Virus record (IMG/VR): IMGVR_UViG_3300034068_000495
Location: 1-52,678 of that record
Length of the DNA stretch: 52,678 nt
Reading direction: 5' to 3' (one strand)
DNA from: a virus
Shown here: positions 3 to 50,715 of the stretch, piece after piece
How positions within the stretch are numbered: position 1 is the stretch's first letter
Layout: every line of letters begins with the position of its first letter
Position numbers and translations under genes: made by a program
Notes under the pieces: generated by a model
Databases searched by the model: none
Seen by the model: only the letters and a program-made list of their open reading frames with translations
Told to the model about the DNA's origin: nothing

Positions 3-695
3 GACGACGACATCTCTCAGGTGATCGCGGAGATCCGAAACCTCGGCTCGGTCGACATGATCGTGATCGACACGCTGGCGCAGGTGACCCCCGGCGCCAA
101 CGAAAACACCAGCGAGGATATGGGCCGCGCACTGCGCAACATTAACCTGCTGCACGAGGCCATTGGCGCCATGAACCTCGTCGTCCACCACGCGGGCAAG
201 GACTTGTCGAAGGGGTCGCGCGGCTGGTCCGGCCTGAAGGCTGCGGCCGACGTGCAGATTGAGGTGCTGCGCCACGAGAACGGCGACCGCGAGATCATCA
301 TCGAGAAGATGAAGGACGGCGAGGACGGCGTTCGATACCCGTTCAAGCTGGAGGTGATCGACGTAGGCATTGACTACGACGGCGACGTCATCACGAGCTG
401 CGTCGCGGTCGAGACCGAGCTGTCGACACCGGCCGGGAACCCGGCGGATCGCAAGGAGGTCAAGCGGCGCGGACGTGTAGAAAATCACCTATTGGAAATT
501 ATGACCGTGTTTGGCAGCGACAGTATCGTCAGTGCCGTAGACCTGATCGACCGCGCCGTGGCCGATTTGCCTGCGCCAGAGGCCGGCAAGCGCGACACCC
601 GCAGACAGTCAGTTGTCCGGGCAATTCAGACACTTAGCAAAGAGAAGGACGGCCCGCTGCGCATGGAAGGCGGAAAGATTATCTTCTACGAGTAA
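3..695 (+). CDS. RepA-like hexameric replicative helicase ATPase (AAA_25), C-terminal part
   Basis: The reading frame is open from the first base and enters from outside the window, so the Walker A region is missing. The visible part starts with a Walker B strand (MIVIDTLAQ), then a sensor-like strand ending in HHAGKD, then GSRGWSGLKAAADVQIEV, the arginine-containing segment typical of RSF1010 RepA/AAA_25 ATPases. The last 70 or so residues look like a winged helix. By family knowledge such proteins unwind DNA at phage or plasmid origins. Its place beside polymerase, ssDNA-binding and nuclease genes fits a replication role. The 3' end runs into the first copy of the repeated leader element. 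A KaiC/RadA-like ATPase is the alternative. Confidence 0.8.
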   Translation, partial: DDDISQVIAEIRNLGSVDMIVIDTLAQVTPGANENTSEDMGRALRNINLLHEAIGAMNLVVHHAGKDLSKGSRGWSGLKAAADVQIEVLRHENGDREIIIEKMKDGEDGVRYPFKLEVIDVGIDYDGDVITSCVAVETELSTPAGNPADRKEVKRRGRVENHLLEIMTVFGSDSIVSAVDLIDRAVADLPAPEAGKRDTRRQSVVRAIQTLSKEKDGPLRMEGGKIIFYE

Positions 696-4402: not shown

Positions 4403-6366
4403 TGTCGACGCTGTGGCTGGACCTCGAAACCTACAGCACGACCCCCATCAAGCAGGGCGCGCACAGGTACGCCGAGGCAGCCGAGGTGTTGCTGGTGGCC
4501 GTCGCACTGGACGACGAGCCGGTAGCGGTCTGGGACACGCAGGACCGGCCAGACTGGCGCTTCGACCTGCAGCGCCTCATCAACGACGCCGACACCATCG
4601 TCATCCACAACAGCGCGTTCGACCGGACGGTGCTGCGCCACAACGGCGTGCACGTACCCGTGGAGAAGATCGAGGACACGATGGTCATCGCGCTCGCGCA
4701 CAGCCTGCCGGCGTCGCTGGGCAGCCTCTGCGACGTGCTGGGCGTACCGCAAGATAAGGCTAAAGACAAAGCCGGTCGACGGTTTATACAGCTATTCACG
4801 AAGCCGTGTCCCAAGAACTGGAAAACCCGGCGCGCAACACGGGAGACACACCCAGATGAGTGGACAGCCTTCATCGAATACGCCCGTCTCGATGTGGACG
4901 CGATGCGAAACATACATGGACGCATGCCGGCTTGGAACAATTCACACGGTGAGCGGCACCTTTGGGGACTTGACCAAAGAATTAACGACCGTGGTGTCGC
5001 CATCGATCTTCAGTTCGCAGGCGCCGCAATTCGAGCTTTTCAACGAGCTACACGATCTCTGGCCGCTCGTGCGTCCCATCTGACCGGGGGCGACGTGTCG
5101 TCGACGACGCAGCGCCAGCGCTTCCTCGACTACATGCGCGACGCCCGGGGCTTCGAGACGGAGGACCTGACCAAGGGCACCGTGGAGACGCTGCTCAAGG
5201 GCACGCTGGACCCGCACGTCCGCGAGCTGCTGGAGATCCGCCAGCAGGCCTCAGCCACGTCACCGGCGAAGTTCGGCGTCCTGATCGGCTCGACGTCCAC
5301 CGACGGCCGCCTGCGCGGCACCGTGCAGTTCTGCGGCGCCGGGCGCACCGGCCGCGACGCGGGGCGGATATTCCAGCCCCAGAACCTGCCGCGTTCGCCC
5401 GACTGGTTCGACGGGGACGTGCAGGAGGCCACGATTGCGGCGTTCAAGTACGACTGCGAGGACATCATATACGACAATGTCAGCGAGCGCTGCGCCTTCG
5501 CCGTGCGCGGCGCGCTGGTGGCCGAGCCCGGCAACAAGCTCGTCATTGCCGACCTGTCGAACATCGAGGGCCGCGTACTGGCGTGGCTGGCGGACGAGCG
5601 GTGGAAGATCGAGGCGTTCAAGCTGTATGATCGCGGCGAGGGGCCCGACCTGTACAAGGTCACCGCAGGCGTCATCCTCGGCAAAGATCCGCAGGAGGTC
5701 ACCAAGGCCGAGCGCCAGACGCAGGGCAAGGTGCCCGAGTTGGCTGGGGGCTACGGTGGCGGGCTGGGCGCGTACCGCAAGATGGGCGGCGACGTGTTCA
5801 ACGCCATGGACGACGACGAGATCATGACAATCGTGCGCGGCTGGCGCAAGGCACACCCGGCGACGAAGAAGCTGTGGTACGACGTCGAGGGCGCCGTCCG
5901 TTCGGCGGTGCTCACGCCCGGCGACAGCTTCGACGTGCGCGGCCTGCTGCGGGTAGACACGGCGAGCGGCCCCGACACCGTCGGCTACGTCCGCATCCGC
6001 CTGCCGAGCGGCCGCTATCTCTGCTACCGCAACCTGCACAAGGATGACGCGGGCAAGCTGCTGTATGAGGGCGTCGACCAGTACACACGCCAGTGGAAGC
6101 TGCTGGAGACGTACTACGGCAAGCTGGTGGAGAATGTCGTGCAGGCAATCGCCCGCGACGTCTTCATGACCGGCCTGCGCAAGGCCGAGGAGGCTGGCTA
6201 CCCGGTCGTCCTGCGCGTGCATGATGAACTGGTTTGCGAGGTGCCGGACGACCCGTCGTTTACCGACGCGGCGTTGTCGGCTATGATGTCCACCAACCCA
6301 AGCTGGGCAATCGGCCTGCCACTGGCGGCGGCGGGGTTTGAGGCGCGGCGCTATAGGAAGGGTTGA
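4402..6366 (+). CDS. Family A DNA polymerase with 3'-5' exonuclease
   Basis: The ATG at 4402 overlaps the previous stop and immediately gives exonuclease motif I (LDLETY, Asp7 and Glu9); the frame is open further upstream but only as shadow. Exo II is HNSAFDRTVL (Asp74) and Exo III is YARLDVDAM (Tyr160, Asp164). Polymerase motif A is ADLSNIEGRVLAW (Asp384), motif B has Arg438, Lys443 and Tyr451 in RQTQGKVPELAGGYG, and motif C is VHDE (607-609). At 654 residues it matches phage-type PolA enzymes without the 5' nuclease domain. It is the replicative polymerase of the phage. Confidence 0.96.
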   Translation: MSTLWLDLETYSTTPIKQGAHRYAEAAEVLLVAVALDDEPVAVWDTQDRPDWRFDLQRLINDADTIVIHNSAFDRTVLRHNGVHVPVEKIEDTMVIALAHSLPASLGSLCDVLGVPQDKAKDKAGRRFIQLFTKPCPKNWKTRRATRETHPDEWTAFIEYARLDVDAMRNIHGRMPAWNNSHGERHLWGLDQRINDRGVAIDLQFAGAAIRAFQRATRSLAARASHLTGGDVSSTTQRQRFLDYMRDARGFETEDLTKGTVETLLKGTLDPHVRELLEIRQQASATSPAKFGVLIGSTSTDGRLRGTVQFCGAGRTGRDAGRIFQPQNLPRSPDWFDGDVQEATIAAFKYDCEDIIYDNVSERCAFAVRGALVAEPGNKLVIADLSNIEGRVLAWLADERWKIEAFKLYDRGEGPDLYKVTAGVILGKDPQEVTKAERQTQGKVPELAGGYGGGLGAYRKMGGDVFNAMDDDEIMTIVRGWRKAHPATKKLWYDVEGAVRSAVLTPGDSFDVRGLLRVDTASGPDTVGYVRIRLPSGRYLCYRNLHKDDAGKLLYEGVDQYTRQWKLLETYYGKLVENVVQAIARDVFMTGLRKAEEAGYPVVLRVHDELVCEVPDDPSFTDAALSAMMSTNPSWAIGLPLAAAGFEARRYRKG

Positions 6367-6563
6367 TGTTCACGCAGCTCGACCCCTCGATCCCGATGGA
6401 CACCCCGAAGGGGCGCGGGCTGGCGTTGGCCGTTATCGATTACGGCCTCGAACACAACCTGCTTTGGGTCGTCGCGGTCGACGAGACGCGCGAGATATGG
6501 TGCGTGCCCAATGCCGACGTGCGCGTGCAGCCGAACTGGTCGGCGGGAAGGCCGCCACCATGA
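6366..6563 (+). CDS. Small unknown protein (65 aa) between polymerase and nuclease
   Basis: The ATG overlaps the last base of the polymerase stop, and the 3' end overlaps the next ATG (6560). It reads MFTQLDPSIPMDTPKGRGLA and carries a WVVAVDETREIWCVPNADVR segment that looks like two beta strands. Similar short proteins with the IPxxTPKGxGxA opening occur next to phage polymerases; no function is known to me. Confidence 0.65.
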   Translation: MFTQLDPSIPMDTPKGRGLALAVIDYGLEHNLLWVVAVDETREIWCVPNADVRVQPNWSAGRPPP

Positions 6564-6856
6564 CCCCCGCCAGCAAGCTGCAGGACCACCTGAAGAAGCT
6601 CGTGCAGGGCAGCGGGGGCCAGTACCGCAAGGTGCGCTGGGAGAACCGCAACGGGTGCCCTGACTGCTACATCTGGTGGACGTGGCCGCGCGCCGCCTTC
6701 GTGGAGGTCAAGGCCGACGGCGACCGTCTCAGCGGCCACCAGCAGCGCGAGATCGAGCGCATGCGGGCCGACGGCGTCCCGGTGTTCATCGCCCGGTCGA
6801 TGGAGGACATCGACGATATCGTGAAAATAGTTAGGGAGGGGGGTTGCAACCTCTGA
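6560..6856 (+). CDS. VRR-NUC domain nuclease (98 aa)
   Basis: The ATG overlaps the end of the previous gene. The single domain carries the VRR-NUC signature: GCPD (Asp35), VEVK (Glu49, Lys51) and the following Gln61 in SGHQQREIERM, then VPVFIARS. By family knowledge these small PD-(D/E)XK enzymes act as structure-selective, often Holliday-junction, nucleases and are commonly linked to SNF2 helicases in phages. An SNF2 gene lies 700 bases downstream. Confidence 0.92.
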   Translation: MTPASKLQDHLKKLVQGSGGQYRKVRWENRNGCPDCYIWWTWPRAAFVEVKADGDRLSGHQQREIERMRADGVPVFIARSMEDIDDIVKIVREGGCNL

Positions 6857-6886
6857 TTGCATGTGCGAGAAGGGTTCATCAGCAAC
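6844..6886 (+). promoter_or_regulatory. Repeated 43-base leader element, copy 2
   Basis: It has the same layout as copy 1: TTGCAA, 7 bases, TTGCATGTGCGAGAAGGG, then TTCATCAGCAAC. It begins inside the last codons of the nuclease gene and lies 19 bases before the ATG at 6906. CTGAT and ATCAG inside the element can pair within the outer GTTGC/GCAAC stem. Confidence 0.75.
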
Positions 6887-6905
6887 GCAAACAGGGACTA
6901 AGCAA

Positions 6906-7337
6906 ATGGCACTTTCACTCTCTTATCGCGACGATCTGGTCGATCTGGGTCGTGACGAAGACGGTTCAGTTATCGTGGGTCGTTCGTTTTACGTAGTAGC
7001 AGAAGACGAAGCCGGTCATCGTTGGGCGCACGCTCATTCGTTTCTGGATCATGCCGAGCGTTACGATGCCGAGGAAGGCCTTCATTATTGGGCGCGTCGT
7101 TGGGACAACGAAGCTGAAGACGCAGTCGCCGCTCTTCTGGCTCGTATCGAAGCCGCTGTGGCCGCCGGTCGTCGTCTGGACGCCGCTCATTGGGTCGAGG
7201 TCGATCCGGCGTATGGCTCGGCTGCTTATCAGGATTTGGCCGCCGTCGGTTACTTCGCCGCTCGTGAGCGTCACGAGGCTCGCGAAGCAGGCGAAGCGGT
7301 CCCCTTCGATCAGCTTTGCGATTATCATTTTGCGTGA
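6906..7337 (+). CDS. Unknown protein (143 aa) with distinctive codon use, behind leader copy 2
   Basis: AGGGACTAAGCAA precedes the ATG at 6906; starting earlier (6861) would translate the leader. The product is acidic, rich in Trp, His and Tyr (RWAHAHSFLDHAERY, LHYWARRWDNEAED) and looks alpha/beta. Of 13 Arg codons 11 are CGT, and CAT and GAA are common, whereas neighbouring genes use CGC, CAC and GAG. This suggests selection for high expression or recent acquisition. No family is recognised. A strong hairpin follows the stop. Confidence 0.7.
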   Translation: MALSLSYRDDLVDLGRDEDGSVIVGRSFYVVAEDEAGHRWAHAHSFLDHAERYDAEEGLHYWARRWDNEAEDAVAALLARIEAAVAAGRRLDAAHWVEVDPAYGSAAYQDLAAVGYFAARERHEAREAGEAVPFDQLCDYHFA

Positions 7338-7342
7338 GGCGC

Positions 7343-7362
7343 GTGGGGGCTTCGGCCCCCAC
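7343..7362 (+). terminator. GC hairpin with TTCG tetraloop
   Basis: GTGGGGGC, TTCG, GCCCCCAC form a perfect 8-bp stem with a very stable tetraloop six bases after the stop of the 143-aa gene. No T tract follows, and the next Shine-Dalgarno begins 8 bases later, so mRNA protection or partial attenuation is as likely as termination. Confidence 0.55.
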
Positions 7363-7380
7363 CAACTTGGAGACACCGAC

Positions 7381-7560
7381 ATGACCATCAACAAAAACTA
7401 CAAAGACCGGACGATCAGTTTCGAGTGCGATACCTGTGGAGACGAGTATGAGGCCGACGGCCTCAACTTCTACGACGCCTACGATGACTACAAGCAAAAC
7501 GGCGGCATCGCGCGCCTTGTCGGCGGGGATTGGGAGCACACCTGCGAGAACTGTAAGTGA
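7381..7560 (+). CDS. Small zinc-ribbon-like protein (59 aa)
   Basis: GGAGACACCGAC stands directly before the ATG, the same initiation context as at 48706, 50008 and 50491. Two Cys pairs, CDTCGDEYEA (about residues 16-25) and HTCENC near the C-terminus, look like the two halves of a zinc knuckle or ribbon. The stop overlaps the GTG of the helicase gene, so the two are coupled. The partner or target is unknown. Confidence 0.7.
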   Translation: MTINKNYKDRTISFECDTCGDEYEADGLNFYDAYDDYKQNGGIARLVGGDWEHTCENCK

Positions 7561-8915
7561 CCTTCACCCCTCACGACTACCAGCAGGAGGCAATGGCGCA
7601 CCTGTACAACGTGCGCCGGAGCGCCCTGTGGATGCCCATGGGCGGCGGGAAGACCGTCAGCACCCTGACGGCGCTGGACAACCTGTCCCTCGTCGAGGAC
7701 GTGTTCCCCGCGCTGGTGCTGGCCCCTCTGCGCGTCGCCCGGTCGACGTGGCCGGACGAGGTCGCCAAGTGGCCGCACCTGTCCCACCTGCGCGTGTCCG
7801 TCGTCACCGGCACGCCGAAGCAGCGGCAGGCGGCGCTCGACGTCCCGGCCGACATCTACACAACGAACTACGACAACCTTGTGTGGCTCCGGGAGGCGCT
7901 GGGCGACGCATGGCCGTTCCGAACGGTCGTCGCCGACGAGTTCACGCGGCTGAAGTCTTTCCGCATCAGGCAGGGCGGCTCACGCGCCCGGGCGCTGGGG
8001 CAGGTGGCACACACGCACGTCGGCCGCTTCATCGGCCTGACGGGCACGCCGGCACCGAACGGCGTCAAGGATCTGTGGGGCCAGATCTGGTTCCTCGACA
8101 AGGGCGAGCGGCTGGGCCGCACGTTCAGTGCCTTCGTGTCTCGCTGGTTCTTCAAGGGCCGCGACGGGTTCAGCCTCATCCCCTACGAACACGCGCAGAG
8201 AGAGGTCGAGGAGCGGCTGCGCGACATCTGCCTGACCGTGCGCGGCCTGCCGGTCGACAAGCCCATCACCAGCCCGATCTACATCGACCTGCCGCCGGCA
8301 GCGCGCCGCGCGTATGACGAGATGGAGGAGGAGATGTACACGATCCTCAACAGAGAGGGCGTCGAGGCGGCCAACGCCGCCGTGCGGACGCAGAAGTGCC
8401 TGCAGCTCGCCAACGGTGCGATGTACACCGATGAGTACGGCAACTGGCAGGCCGTGCACGACGCGAAGCTGGACGCGCTTGAGAGCGTCATTGAGGAGGC
8501 GAATGGCGCCCCCGTCTTGGTGGCCTATAACTTCAAGCACGATCTGGAGCGCCTGCGGGGCCGGTTCCGTCAGGGCCGAATGTTGGACGCCGACCCGCAG
8601 ACGATCAGGGACTGGAACGCCGGCCGGATCTCGATCCTCTTCGCACACCCGGCGTCGGCAGGACACGGGCTGAACCTCGCCGACGGCGGCAACATCCTCG
8701 CCTTCTACGGGGTCAACTGGAACCTTGAGGAGCACATGCAGATCATCGAGCGGATCGGCCCGATGCGTCAGAAGCAGGCCGGGTACGACAGGCCGGTGTT
8801 CATCTACCCGATCCTCGCCCGCCACACGGTCGATGATCTCGTCATGGACCGCCTGTCGTCGAAGAAGAGCATTCAAGAAATCTTATTGGAAGCGATGAAG
8901 AGGAAAGCGAAATGA
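7557..8915 (+). CDS. SNF2-type DEAD-like helicase/ATPase
   Basis: The GTG start overlaps the upstream stop by four bases. The 452-residue protein shows HDYQQEAM (Q-like motif), Walker A MGGGKT (Lys32), motif II VVADEFTRLK (Asp127, Glu128), motif III TGTPAPN, then ASAGHGLNL (366-374) and QIIERIGPMRQ (395-405), in place of the usual IHRIGQ. Such phage SNF2 proteins are thought to remodel DNA or protein-DNA complexes during replication or recombination, often with VRR-NUC. The ATGA overlap couples it to the next gene. Confidence 0.92.
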   Translation: MTFTPHDYQQEAMAHLYNVRRSALWMPMGGGKTVSTLTALDNLSLVEDVFPALVLAPLRVARSTWPDEVAKWPHLSHLRVSVVTGTPKQRQAALDVPADIYTTNYDNLVWLREALGDAWPFRTVVADEFTRLKSFRIRQGGSRARALGQVAHTHVGRFIGLTGTPAPNGVKDLWGQIWFLDKGERLGRTFSAFVSRWFFKGRDGFSLIPYEHAQREVEERLRDICLTVRGLPVDKPITSPIYIDLPPAARRAYDEMEEEMYTILNREGVEAANAAVRTQKCLQLANGAMYTDEYGNWQAVHDAKLDALESVIEEANGAPVLVAYNFKHDLERLRGRFRQGRMLDADPQTIRDWNAGRISILFAHPASAGHGLNLADGGNILAFYGVNWNLEEHMQIIERIGPMRQKQAGYDRPVFIYPILARHTVDDLVMDRLSSKKSIQEILLEAMKRKAK

Positions 8916-47771: not shown

Positions 47772-48223
47772 TTGCCGTCCCTCGCACGCAACGCCTCAGA
47801 CAACGCGAGGGTGAGCGCGACGTTGTCGACGTTGCTGTCGATCTTGAGCGTCTCGCCCTCCTTGTTGCCGACGTCGACAGTCTGCTTGGGGCTGTATTTC
47901 TTAGGGTTCCAGCAGGCCAGCAGCTTCAGCCGCGTCTCGACCTGCGCACGCTTCCACTGCACGTGGCCCGGGTCGATCTTCCCGTCGACGCGCGCCGGCT
48001 CTGCATCGATCAGGGCGAGGGCATGATCCGCGATGGCGTCACCGCCAACCTCGCGCGCGGTCGCGTACGCGACTGCCAGCGCTTCGTCCGCCGCTACCCA
48101 CTTGCCCCAGTTGACCGGGTGAAACCCCAACTCACGGCCGAGCGCAGCCAACGTCTCACCCAGAGCGAGGCGCTCAAGGACTTCCGCTTCAAGTTTGGGG
48201 GTGCGCTTTGTCGGCGTGGGCAT
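47768..48223 (-). CDS. terS: Terminase small subunit candidate (151 aa)
   Basis: This is the first gene of the late cluster; GGAGCACGCAGAGT precedes its ATG. An N-terminal HTH-like part (EAEVLERLALGETLAALGRE, then HPVNWGKWVAADEALAVAYA) is followed by DAEPARVDGKIDPGHVQWKR and QVETRLKLLACWNPKKYSPK, the pattern of phage TerS proteins of the terminase_5/HTH type. It would recognise the packaging site. Confidence 0.85.
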   Translation of the reverse strand: MPTPTKRTPKLEAEVLERLALGETLAALGRELGFHPVNWGKWVAADEALAVAYATAREVGGDAIADHALALIDAEPARVDGKIDPGHVQWKRAQVETRLKLLACWNPKKYSPKQTVDVGNKEGETLKIDSNVDNVALTLALSEALRARDGK

Positions 48224-48386
48224 ACTCTGCGTGCTCCGCTAAGTGGCAGGACTACCAGACCCCCTAGATACGCTCGATCACCGCGCACCGCAACCCCAGC
48301 CTTTCCACGGGTGCAACGCAACGCACCACGGGAGCCTAAAAGTTTCAGCGCCACCCCCTGCAACGCAACGCGAAATCGCTGCAACG

Positions 48387-48438
48387 TGCAACGCGAGGGG
48401 GGCATAGACTACGTCTATAGCCCTCTCCCTGCGTTGCA
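48387..48438. repeat. Extended dyad around ATAGAC-TAC-GTCTAT
   Basis: TGCAACGC (48387-48394) and GCGTTGCA (48431-48438) are perfect inverted arms. Inside them GGGC and GCCC flank the perfect dyad ATAGAC, TAC, GTCTAT (48404-48418). It may be a cruciform, an operator pair or a terminator acting in both directions. Confidence 0.65.
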
Positions 48439-48584
48439 AGTAGCATTGCACCGCGCAACATCTGCTGCAACGTTGCCTCGCGTTGCACGTTGCAAACCCT
48501 AAAAATACCCAACATTTTCATATCATTAGCGATTTTTTACTCGTGTTGCAAAGCACCTTTTGCACCGCTCAAACCCGGCCCAAA

Positions 48585-48609
48585 TGCAACGCGAGACCCT
48601 CGCGTTGCA
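48585..48609. repeat. Perfect 11-bp inverted repeat, 3-base spacer
   Basis: TGCAACGCGAG, ACC, CTCGCGTTGCA. The outer half of each arm is the TGCAAC box repeated throughout the region, so it looks like a high-affinity dimer site for a DNA-binding protein. Confidence 0.75.
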
Positions 48610-48647
48610 CGCGTTGCAGCAACACGTAAAAAACTGCATATACCCTA

Positions 48648-48690
48648 TTGCAACCCATGCTTGCATGTGCGAGAAGGGCTCATCAGCAAC
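48648..48690 (+). promoter_or_regulatory. Repeated 43-base leader element, copy 3
   Basis: TTGCAA, 7 bases, TTGCATGTGCGAGAAGGG, then CTCATCAGCAAC, 15 bases before the ATG at 48706. GTAAAAAACTGCATATACCC lies just upstream and partly matches the sequence before copy 1; TATACC there could be a -10 element, which would place the element in the transcribed leader. Confidence 0.78.
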
Positions 48691-48705
48691 ACAGGAGACA
48701 CCGAC

Positions 48706-49143
48706 ATGACGACCACCCTCACCGCCGCCCGCCCGTGGATCGCAGAGCGCACCGCCGAGATCAACGCCGCCGCCGACGCCATCACCGCCCTGAACATCGG
48801 CGACGGTGTCAGCGTCTCGGTCTGGACCGACGTGGACGCCTACACCGTCGTCAAGAAGACCGCGACGACGATCACGCTCCGCGCCGACACCGCCACGCTC
48901 CTCAACCGCGACGAGCTGCGCTTCATCCCCGGCGGCTTCGCTGCCCACTGCGACAACCAAGCCGACCAGCGTTACTCGTACGCGGCCAACCCCAACGGCC
49001 GCGAGATCAAGATCAGCCTGCGCCGCTGGGCCGACGAGGACGGCGCCGAGCGCCGCAAGTGGAAGAGCGCCGGCACCAAGACCTTCGAGCAGGGCGGCAA
49101 CGCCTACGCCGGCCGCCGCGCCTTCCACGACTTCAACTTCTGA
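48706..49143 (+). CDS. Unknown protein (145 aa) behind leader copy 3
   Basis: GGAGACACCGAC directly precedes the ATG at 48706; an in-frame extension to 48490 would cross the control region and is rejected. The product starts MTTTLTAARPWIAERTAEIN, has a beta-rich core (GDGVSVSVWTDVDAYTVVKK, TTITLRADTATLLNRDELRF) and a basic C-terminal half (EIKISLRRWADEDGAERRKW). It may be a small beta-barrel DNA- or RNA-binding protein. As the first gene of the right-hand operon under the shared leader, it is expected to be early. Confidence 0.7.
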   Translation: MTTTLTAARPWIAERTAEINAAADAITALNIGDGVSVSVWTDVDAYTVVKKTATTITLRADTATLLNRDELRFIPGGFAAHCDNQADQRYSYAANPNGREIKISLRRWADEDGAERRKWKSAGTKTFEQGGNAYAGRRAFHDFNF

Positions 49144-49201
49144 CACCGCCAACCCGGGGGCACACCACCCCCGGGCCAACCCCCACACAGGAGACACCAC
49201 C

Positions 49202-49435
49202 ATGCGCTTCGGAGACATCACCATCAACAGCGACCGCTTCGGCACCACGCTCACGCACCACGCCGAGCGCCGCAGCCTCTACTTCCAGCCGGGAGACGAG
49301 GCGGGCGACCTGCACGACGCGCTGGAGGCCACTGAGGCCGCGCTGGAGGCCAGCGGCGTCACCTACACCTACGCCGACGTCCTCGCGGCCGTGTGGGACG
49401 ACTACAGGGACGCAGGACAGGAGGTTGAGGCATGA
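49202..49435 (+). CDS. Small acidic unknown protein (77 aa)
   Basis: GGAGACACCACC precedes the ATG. The product reads MRFGDITINSDRFGTTLTHH, YFQPGDEAGDLHDALEATEA, and YADVLAAVWDDYRDAGQEVE. The stop overlaps the ATG of the XRE/sigma gene (ATGA), so the two are translationally coupled; it could be a partner or antagonist of that regulator. Confidence 0.62.
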   Translation: MRFGDITINSDRFGTTLTHHAERRSLYFQPGDEAGDLHDALEATEAALEASGVTYTYADVLAAVWDDYRDAGQEVEA

Positions 49436-49980
49436 GCGACTACCGCATCAAGATCTCGATCAGCAACGGCCGCATCCTCCGGCTGATGGACGATGCGGGC
49501 ATCGAGACGCAGACCGAGTTGGCCCGCCGCGCGGGCATGGGGGTGGTAGCCGTCAACGCCATCGTCAAGATGCGCGACCTGCCGAAGCTGCAGAACGGCG
49601 ACTGGCGTGACGCGGTGCAGCGCATCGCGGCAGTGCTAGGCGTGGCCCCCGAGGAGATGTTCACCGACACGCAGGCCAACGGCACCCTCGAAAAGAGCAC
49701 CTTCGAGACCGGCCTGACCGAGGCGCAGATGGGCAGCCTGTGTGGCCCCGACGCCGTCACGCAGCTCGAGGAACAGGACATGGTGGCCCACCTCATGATG
49801 GAACTGCCAGACCGCGAACGGCGTGTGATCACGGCGCGCATGGAGGGCGACACGCTTGCGGAGGTCGGGCTGAAGATAGGCACCCAAGCGGAGCGCGTGC
49901 GCCAGCTCGAGGCGAGGGCGATCCGCCACATGCGGAGGCAGGCGCACCGCCTCAACATCCGCGCCGATGACGCTTTCTAG
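49432..49980 (+). CDS. XRE-type HTH fused to sigma-70 region 4-like domain (182 aa)
   Basis: Residues about 8-77 form a Cro/C1-type HTH domain (GRILRLMDDAGIETQTELAR, RAGMGVVAVNAIVKMRD, then VQRIAAVLGVAPEEMF). Residues about 123-172 match sigma-70 region 4: ELPDRERRVITARMEGDTLA, EVGLKIGTQAERVRQLEARA, IRHMRR. No region 2 (-10 recognition, core binding) is present. The XRE half could bind an operator and the region 4 half could touch a -35 element or the RNA polymerase beta flap, so it may be a phage transcription activator or appropriator. The role is inferred; both domain matches are seen directly. Confidence 0.82.
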   Translation: MSDYRIKISISNGRILRLMDDAGIETQTELARRAGMGVVAVNAIVKMRDLPKLQNGDWRDAVQRIAAVLGVAPEEMFTDTQANGTLEKSTFETGLTEAQMGSLCGPDAVTQLEEQDMVAHLMMELPDRERRVITARMEGDTLAEVGLKIGTQAERVRQLEARAIRHMRRQAHRLNIRADDAF

Positions 49981-50007
49981 GCAATTACGCCAACAGGAGA
50001 CACCGAC

Positions 50008-50424
50008 ATGATCAGCAAGAAGATAACCACCCTCGTGGAGCAGGCGACCGACGACCGGGTGCTGTACCACCTGCGCCGCGCCCTCAGCGCCGCCCTCCAG
50101 TCGGAGGAGGTGAAGCCGATACCGACCAACATCGAGCTGGCAGACCGCAACTGGTCCATCTGGCGCGACCACTATGTCAACAACGTCAACAAGGCTGATC
50201 TGGCCCGGCAGCACGACATCACGAAGAGCCGCATAACTGGCATACTGGGCAAACAGATGCGCCGCGTCGTGTACGTGATAGGCTGGGATCGCGGGCACTA
50301 TGGCAGGCCGATGCGAGAGGCACTGCTGGGCGTCGAGGTCGTCTGGCGGGCGGGCGAGCCTGACTATTTGCGCATGCCAGACGGCCGCGAGGTCCTGTTC
50401 AACGGCATGCCCTACGACCGATAA
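50008..50424 (+). CDS. Mor-like HTH transcription factor candidate (138 aa)
   Basis: GGAGACACCGAC precedes the ATG. The N-terminal half is helical and the middle carries NWSIWRDHYVNNVNKADLAR, QHDITKSRITGILGKQMRRV, a helix-turn-helix like that of Mor/C-type phage activators. The C-terminal part is a short beta segment (VVWRAGEPDYLRMPDGREVL). It follows the XRE/sigma gene, so the two may act in the same regulatory circuit. Confidence 0.68.
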   Translation: MISKKITTLVEQATDDRVLYHLRRALSAALQSEEVKPIPTNIELADRNWSIWRDHYVNNVNKADLARQHDITKSRITGILGKQMRRVVYVIGWDRGHYGRPMREALLGVEVVWRAGEPDYLRMPDGREVLFNGMPYDR

Positions 50425-50432
50425 ATTAGCTG

Positions 50433-50475
50433 TTGCAACCTGTGATTGCATGTGCGAGAAAGGCTCATCAGCAAC
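50433..50475 (+). promoter_or_regulatory. Repeated 43-base leader element, copy 4
   Basis: TTGCAA, 7 bases, TTGCATGTGCGAGAAAGG, then CTCATCAGCAAC, 15 bases before the ATG at 50491. GATAAATTAG lies just upstream. It begins eight bases after the stop of the Mor-like gene, so it separates two transcription or translation units. Confidence 0.78.
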
Positions 50476-50490
50476 CAAGGAGACACCGAC

Positions 50491-50715
50491 ATGACGATCA
50501 TATCGAACCCGGCCTACCTCGCCGCCGTAGACCAAGCCATGGATGTACGCGAGGCGGCGTTTGATGCGGCCAATGAGACCTACGCCGCCGATTGGCAGAG
50601 CAATCGAAGCGCCGCCATAAAGGCTCGCGTTGCCGCCTATAAGGTAGCTGACAAAACATTCGCAGCGGCCTGCGCCGCAGCCGCCGAAGCGGTTTTCTCC
50701 GCAGCCGCGAAGTAA
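50491..50715 (+). CDS. Ala-rich small protein (74 aa) behind leader copy 4
   Basis: GGAGACACCGAC precedes the ATG. The product is almost entirely helical (AMDVREAAFDAANETYAADW, FAAACAAAAEAVFSAAAK) and Ala-rich in a heptad-like rhythm. It is related in style to the Ala-rich proteins at 51500 and 51933. Function unknown. Confidence 0.65.
   Translation: MTIISNPAYLAAVDQAMDVREAAFDAANETYAADWQSNRSAAIKARVAAYKVADKTFAAACAAAAEAVFSAAAK

Follow-up and report, generated by a model that had tools for sequence, protein, structure and literature searches.

The gene at 49432–49980 (plus strand) of a virus record of 52,678 bases, the whole of which is referred to here as the window, encodes a protein of 182 amino acids that joins a Cro/C1-type (XRE) domain and a sigma-70 region 4 on one chain. 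Judged by profile and by fold the protein, which we call HTH-sigma4, possesses a sigma-70 region 4 without being a complete sigma-70 factor. A first-pass annotation had reported an open reading frame here and had read it as a fusion of these two domains lacking region 2; the frame, which starts with ATG, was found at this position with its translation, and the fusion proved to be right and to be conserved in a family of 21 distinct members. Region 4 is the promoter-reading tip of bacterial sigma factors, and we think that this family probably helps redirect the RNA polymerase of the host.

Domain content and predicted structure

Pfam gathering cut-offs were used as the criterion for domain assignment, and two matches lie above them. 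Sigma70_r4 (PF04545) matches residues 122–168 (49795–49935, plus strand) with 41.4 bits and an E value of 1e-10 (cut-off 24.1), and HTH_26 matches residues 14–78 (49471–49665, plus strand) with 23.7 bits and an E value of 5.6e-5 (cut-off 22). The Cro/C1-type domain expected at the N-terminus is thus recognized by HTH_26, and HTH_3 (20.8 bits) stays under its own cut-off of 23. Within residues 115–175, which the annotation had read as region 4, the only Pfam matches were Sigma70_r4 and Sigma70_r4_2, of which the latter, at 17.2 bits, missed its cut-off. Sigma70_r4 had no competitor there among generic HTH families, so this reading stands. Searches of NCBIfam and of solved structures placed the region 4 in the RpoD/SigA/RpoS type.

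Complete sigma factors bind the polymerase core and recognise the -10 element through region 2, but Sigma70_r2 has no Pfam match in the HTH-sigma4 protein or elsewhere in the window record. The search was extended at E<=10 to 12 related records, among them that of L010, which covers ~2.5 kb absent from the window, and none was found in the 13 records in total, most of which are fragments and in which a very divergent region 2 would escape detection. The possibility that the N-terminal domain is a sigma region 3 was rejected; rpoD aligns there in BLAST, but Pfam gives XRE. The sole region 3 match, a weak one, falls within the C-terminal half of the L006 protein and not in the N-terminal domain.

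The mean pLDDT of the AlphaFold2 models was 83 when 11 sequences were used and rose to 89 for the 21-member alignment, and the pLDDT exceeded 90 across most of residues 121–170. In the N-terminal half, a predicted strand at residues 4–9 (49441–49458, plus strand) is followed by an XRE-like set of helices at 13–76. The linker (residues 79–121; 49666–49794, plus strand), which we delimited from the model and from the conserved residues Q81, G84, F91, E97 and D116, is predicted to comprise a short helix, a strand at 90–95, a helix at 97–104 and the start of a long helix at 106–123, and the three region 4 helices are placed at 127–173. The region 4 fold that the annotation had anticipated was recovered by Foldseek, with matches to the sigma domain-4 structure 3hug_E (TMt 0.81, rmsd 1.9), to the region 4 structure 8jzt_C (TMt 0.84, rmsd about 2) and to 7kug_D, a chimera of sigma-A region 4 and the beta-flap tip (rmsd 1.9 over 71 columns). 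For the XRE domain, the first AlphaFold2 model matched the XRE protein C.AhdI (1y7y_B, TMt 0.73). Full-length matches to sigma factors gave poor TM scores of about 0.37, and therefore we do not claim an overall sigma fold; with a pTM of 0.56, the model speaks for the separate domain folds and not for their arrangement. The best structural match in BFVD was A0A0F7L6V6 (178 columns, E 1.3e-9), a protein of an uncultured marine virus named "Sigma-70 region 3 domain protein", which, likened by structure alone, is probably a deposited but uncharacterised member of the family.

Conservation and distribution of the family

Thirty sequences were aligned, 21 of them distinct at 90% identity and all from uncultured viral contigs. 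Relatives of the window protein in these contigs are close (95–100% identity), intermediate (57–72%) or distant (22–34%). Sigma70_r4 is matched at E<=0.01 in 21/21 members and HTH_26 in only 4/21, the XRE assignment in the remaining members being made by alignment to the window protein. All 21 have in common the N-terminal DYR[IV]K strand and the conserved linker. The first 12 residues, which include the predicted strand, are the best conserved part of the family, and the invariant positions are D3, Y4, R5, K7, I10, N12, L16, F77, Q81 and R155. Because region 4 and the N-terminal domain occur together in every member, both parts seem to be selected together. For the gene itself, dN/dS was 0.18–0.61 against five of six relatives and undefined for the sixth (five nonsynonymous and no synonymous changes); the values for the five argue that the gene is real, and these substitution patterns indicate purifying selection overall.

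The helix predicted to read the -35 element retains the ERVRQ residues E154, R155, R157 and Q158 in the window protein, preceded by Ala153 where the family usually has R or K. Some members have G, D or A at the position of the -35-contacting Arg (R157 in the window), and the residues of this helix are kept in most members, not all.

No full-length member was found in 50,697 phage records, nor by tblastn in phage and plasmid records; scanning of GTDB species genomes with short peptide patterns gave no member, and further single-sequence scans of viral contigs gave no additional ones. MT839157 was considered as a full-length phage homologue and was rejected as a bacterial rpoD. Since the rpoD in this record (L025, MT839157.1), which was deposited as "Bacteriophage sp." and derives from human faeces, is bacterial and looks complete, the DNA probably comes from a bacterium. 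In the AT-rich member L018 the terminase shares 76% identity with that of Pelagibacter phage HTVC027P, a phage with which the L018 branch also has polymerase, exonuclease and terS in common. No homologue of HTH-sigma4 was present, however, in the first 19–22.5 kb, up to terL, of the cultured Pelagibacter phages HTVC027P and HTVC023P.

Genome position and a variable slot

In the window, the late genes run leftward from terS (48223) through terL and portal, and the early and replication genes run rightward from about 48.7 kb and resume at the left end. The contig L010 (about 5834–8303) links the right end of the window to its left end through the ~2.5 kb absent from the window, and the record therefore represents an almost complete genome that was opened at a point in the early region. 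Its large terminase shares about 60% identity with those of Caulobacter phage KcrB and relatives, from which we infer that an alphaproteobacterial host is likely. The HTH-sigma4 gene is the third open reading frame of the early operon and lies about 1.2 kb from terS in the opposite direction.

Its upstream neighbour is a 77-aa ORF (49202–49435, plus strand), with which it shares an ATGA overlap, and its downstream neighbour is a 138-aa ORF (50008–50424, plus strand) with a weakly Mor/KorA-like HTH that stays below cut-off (Pfam Mor, E 0.0033; PHROG late activator, E 0.0014; both weak matches). What follows the 77-aa ORF differs among contigs with these neighbouring genes in common. In the window and in L002, L010 and L011 it is the HTH-sigma4 gene and then the 138-aa ORF; in L004 and L005, orfB stands between these two; and in L012 (the same contig as L028), orfA precedes the HTH-sigma4 gene and the 138-aa ORF is absent. 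In four siblings the HTH-sigma4 gene is missing, and the 138-aa ORF is preceded by orfA (L030, L045) or by orfB (L032, L039). No Sigma70_r4 match was found elsewhere in the records of these four, which are fragments. Both orfA (68 aa) and orfB (89 aa) are short predicted ORFs that alternate with the HTH-sigma4 gene in this slot.

Since the contents of the slot vary among siblings, the HTH-sigma4 gene is an optional, accessory cassette of the early operon. For the same reason, the ATGA overlap is a property of the slot and not of a fixed pair. The translational coupling that had been noted with the 77-aa gene thus holds as far as the overlap is concerned, whereas the partnership it implied is not supported, because other, unrelated ORFs follow the 77-aa gene in siblings and the HTH-sigma4 gene can also follow another ORF. 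Every contig that spans the slot has the HTH-sigma4 gene, the 138-aa ORF or both; the cases are few, and this pattern is only suggestive.

In lambda-like maps, late-gene regulators usually lie between the replication genes and the terminase genes. Two distant members show a comparable order: in L015, a primosomal protein and small ORFs are followed by the HTH-sigma4 gene, a small ORF, terS and terL, and in L013, a replication-initiation protein and further ORFs are followed by the HTH-sigma4 gene, a short gap, terS and terL. Wherever terS is recognisable in the Pelagibacter-type contigs, it is about 1–5 kb away from the HTH-sigma4 gene, a distance that is biased and says little alone because the flanks are at most 8 kb.

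DNA elements at the control region

Among the arrays and blocks that we examined, none behaved like an operator for the HTH-sigma4 protein or tracked the gene. A dense GCGTTGCA/TGCAACGC array occupies 48224–48701 of the window, between the divergent terS and early operon, and contains eight of the ten genome copies of GCGTTGCA. As an operator for HTH-sigma4 it was rejected, since GCGTTGCA is nearly absent from relatives with a 95–96% identical protein. The array motif differs in relatives, perhaps along with the helicase gene (window 21–695), which is 99.5% identical in L010 and 57–58% identical in L004 and L012; the array possibly consists of origin repeats or of operators for another protein.

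Directly upstream of terS, on the minus strand, is a 33-bp block, CTGGTAGTCCTGCCACNNAGCGGAGCACGCAGA (48226–48258), with an imperfect dyad, TGGNAGNNCTNCCA. Identical copies of the block occur in 24 viral contigs, including some whose terS shares no more than 39–54% identity, and the block is a candidate for a late operator/promoter, a cos/pac site or a leader. As an operator for HTH-sigma4 it turned out to be unspecific, because siblings without the gene have the same block.

A repeat of ~50 bp before early genes (TTGCAAcc...TTGCATGTGCGAGAAgGG...TCATCAGCAAC; plus strand, at 708, 6838, 48645 and 50430) resembles an early promoter or leader common to these genes. There is no consensus -10 in the repeat, no consensus sigma-70 promoter was found in 48150–50600, and the z-scores for RNA structure in the leaders were near zero. 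The leader was rejected as the cognate promoter, as by eye the early-operon leader varies among relatives with identical recognition helices.

Discussion

The reading that we favour, tentatively, is that the HTH-sigma4 protein is an early regulator that retargets RNA polymerase through its region 4. The XRE domain would bind an operator located in the DNA of the phage (or of the host), and the RpoD-like region 4 at the C-terminus would dock on the beta-flap tip of the host polymerase and/or on a -35-like sequence. There it would displace the region 4 of the host sigma, which would retain its region 2 and its -10 contact, and RNA polymerase would be redirected to operator-bearing promoters, which probably belong to middle or late genes. 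We infer that the protein binds an operator, docks on the flap, activates instead of repressing and acts on genes of this class. This reading is supported by a region 4 that is clearly of the housekeeping type (RpoD/SigA) and a model that matches a region 4 structure fused to the flap tip, by an architecture kept in 21/21 members together with the ERVRQ residues kept in the window, and by the gene order in L013 and L015, with replication genes on one side and terS-terL on the other. Against retargeting stand the lack of an operator that tracks the gene, among the elements examined, and the members without the -35-contacting Arg. The four sibling contigs without the gene imply that it is dispensable for late transcription in this phage group. 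A more far-reaching and rather doubtful version is that the family consists of one-chain sigma appropriators, in which a conserved, strand-containing linker connects an operator-binding XRE domain to a captured region 4 of host type, and which would swap region 4 on the host holoenzyme and give it a new upstream promoter element; such a family would span phages with terminases of the types of Caulobacter KcrB, Pelagibacter HTVC027P and others. Of the roles put forward in the first-pass annotation, both a -35 appropriator and an anti-sigma decoy are conceivable.

Almost as likely as retargeting is that the protein is a two-headed DNA-binding protein, in which region 4 serves as a second DNA-reading HTH and promoters are repressed or tuned without contact with RNA polymerase, for example by region 4 covering a -35 element beside the XRE operator. 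This would suit two domains that are both DNA-binding folds, the mostly repressor-like nature of phage XRE proteins (PHROG matches) and an optional gene in a regulator-rich early slot; what it accounts for less well is that a whole RpoD-like region 4 is kept in 21/21 members, which would be more than DNA reading needs. Region 4 could also act as a decoy, competing with that of the host sigma for the beta flap and weakening host transcription, with the XRE domain used for autoregulation or as an anchor. In principle a housekeeping-type region 4 on its own, lacking region 2, could compete, and the early-operon location is compatible with host takeover, but we regard a decoy as unlikely, since an XRE domain, superfluous for such a role, is present in every member and most members keep a -35-reading helix that a flap decoy does not need. 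It is very improbable that HTH-sigma4 is half of a split sigma factor whose region 2 is supplied by another phage protein, as in SigO-RsoA of Bacillus subtilis. Two-subunit sigma factors are known (PMC10141391) and a region 4 without region 2 is how one half would be expected to look; against this, Sigma70_r2 was not found at E<=10 in the 13 records, although these are mostly fragments and a divergent region 2 could escape.

Returning to retargeting, if region 4 docks on RNA polymerase, a single 20-kDa protein could reprogram the promoter choice of the host and would require neither a full sigma factor nor a separate anti-sigma. The family would then be a test case for a free-standing region 4 that replaces the resident one in the holoenzyme.

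Q, ArpU and RinA are phage late-gene activators placed before the terminase. The HTH-sigma4 gene resembles them in L013 and L015, where it lies between replication genes and terS-terL, but differs in the window group, where it belongs to the early operon, is transcribed divergently from terS and is optional, and where siblings lacking it retain the same terS leader block. No Q/ArpU/RinA-type family was among the matches listed (PHROG, NCBIfam).

Other small sigma-related regulators are Xpf, which is encoded by a Bacillus subtilis prophage and has both sigma2 and sigma4, and SigO-RsoA, a sigma split over two proteins with region 2 on one subunit (PMC10141391). Both have region 2, whereas HTH-sigma4 has an XRE domain and no detectable region 2.

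In proposed outcome, HTH-sigma4 resembles AsiA/MotA of phage T4, where an upstream element chosen by the phage takes over from the -35 contact made by the host holoenzyme (PMC6755090). T4 AsiA touches the flap tip and the upstream DNA, standing in for region 4 (PMC6755090), a precedent that makes retargeting physically reasonable; because AsiA takes over region 4 contacts, a swap by a free-standing region 4 should be possible in principle. The means are different, as AsiA has no homology to region 4 and instead remodels that of the host sigma (PMC6755090), and no match to the AsiA or MotA families was found in the HTH-sigma4 protein. To our reading, this family is previously undescribed and known from uncultured viruses; no description of the XRE plus sigma region 4 architecture was found in the open-access literature. 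We class it with the phage transcription regulators that act at the position of sigma region 4, not as a separate category, and it is set apart from T4 in that AsiA and MotA are two proteins whereas HTH-sigma4 carries a putative operator-binding domain and a true region 4 on one chain.
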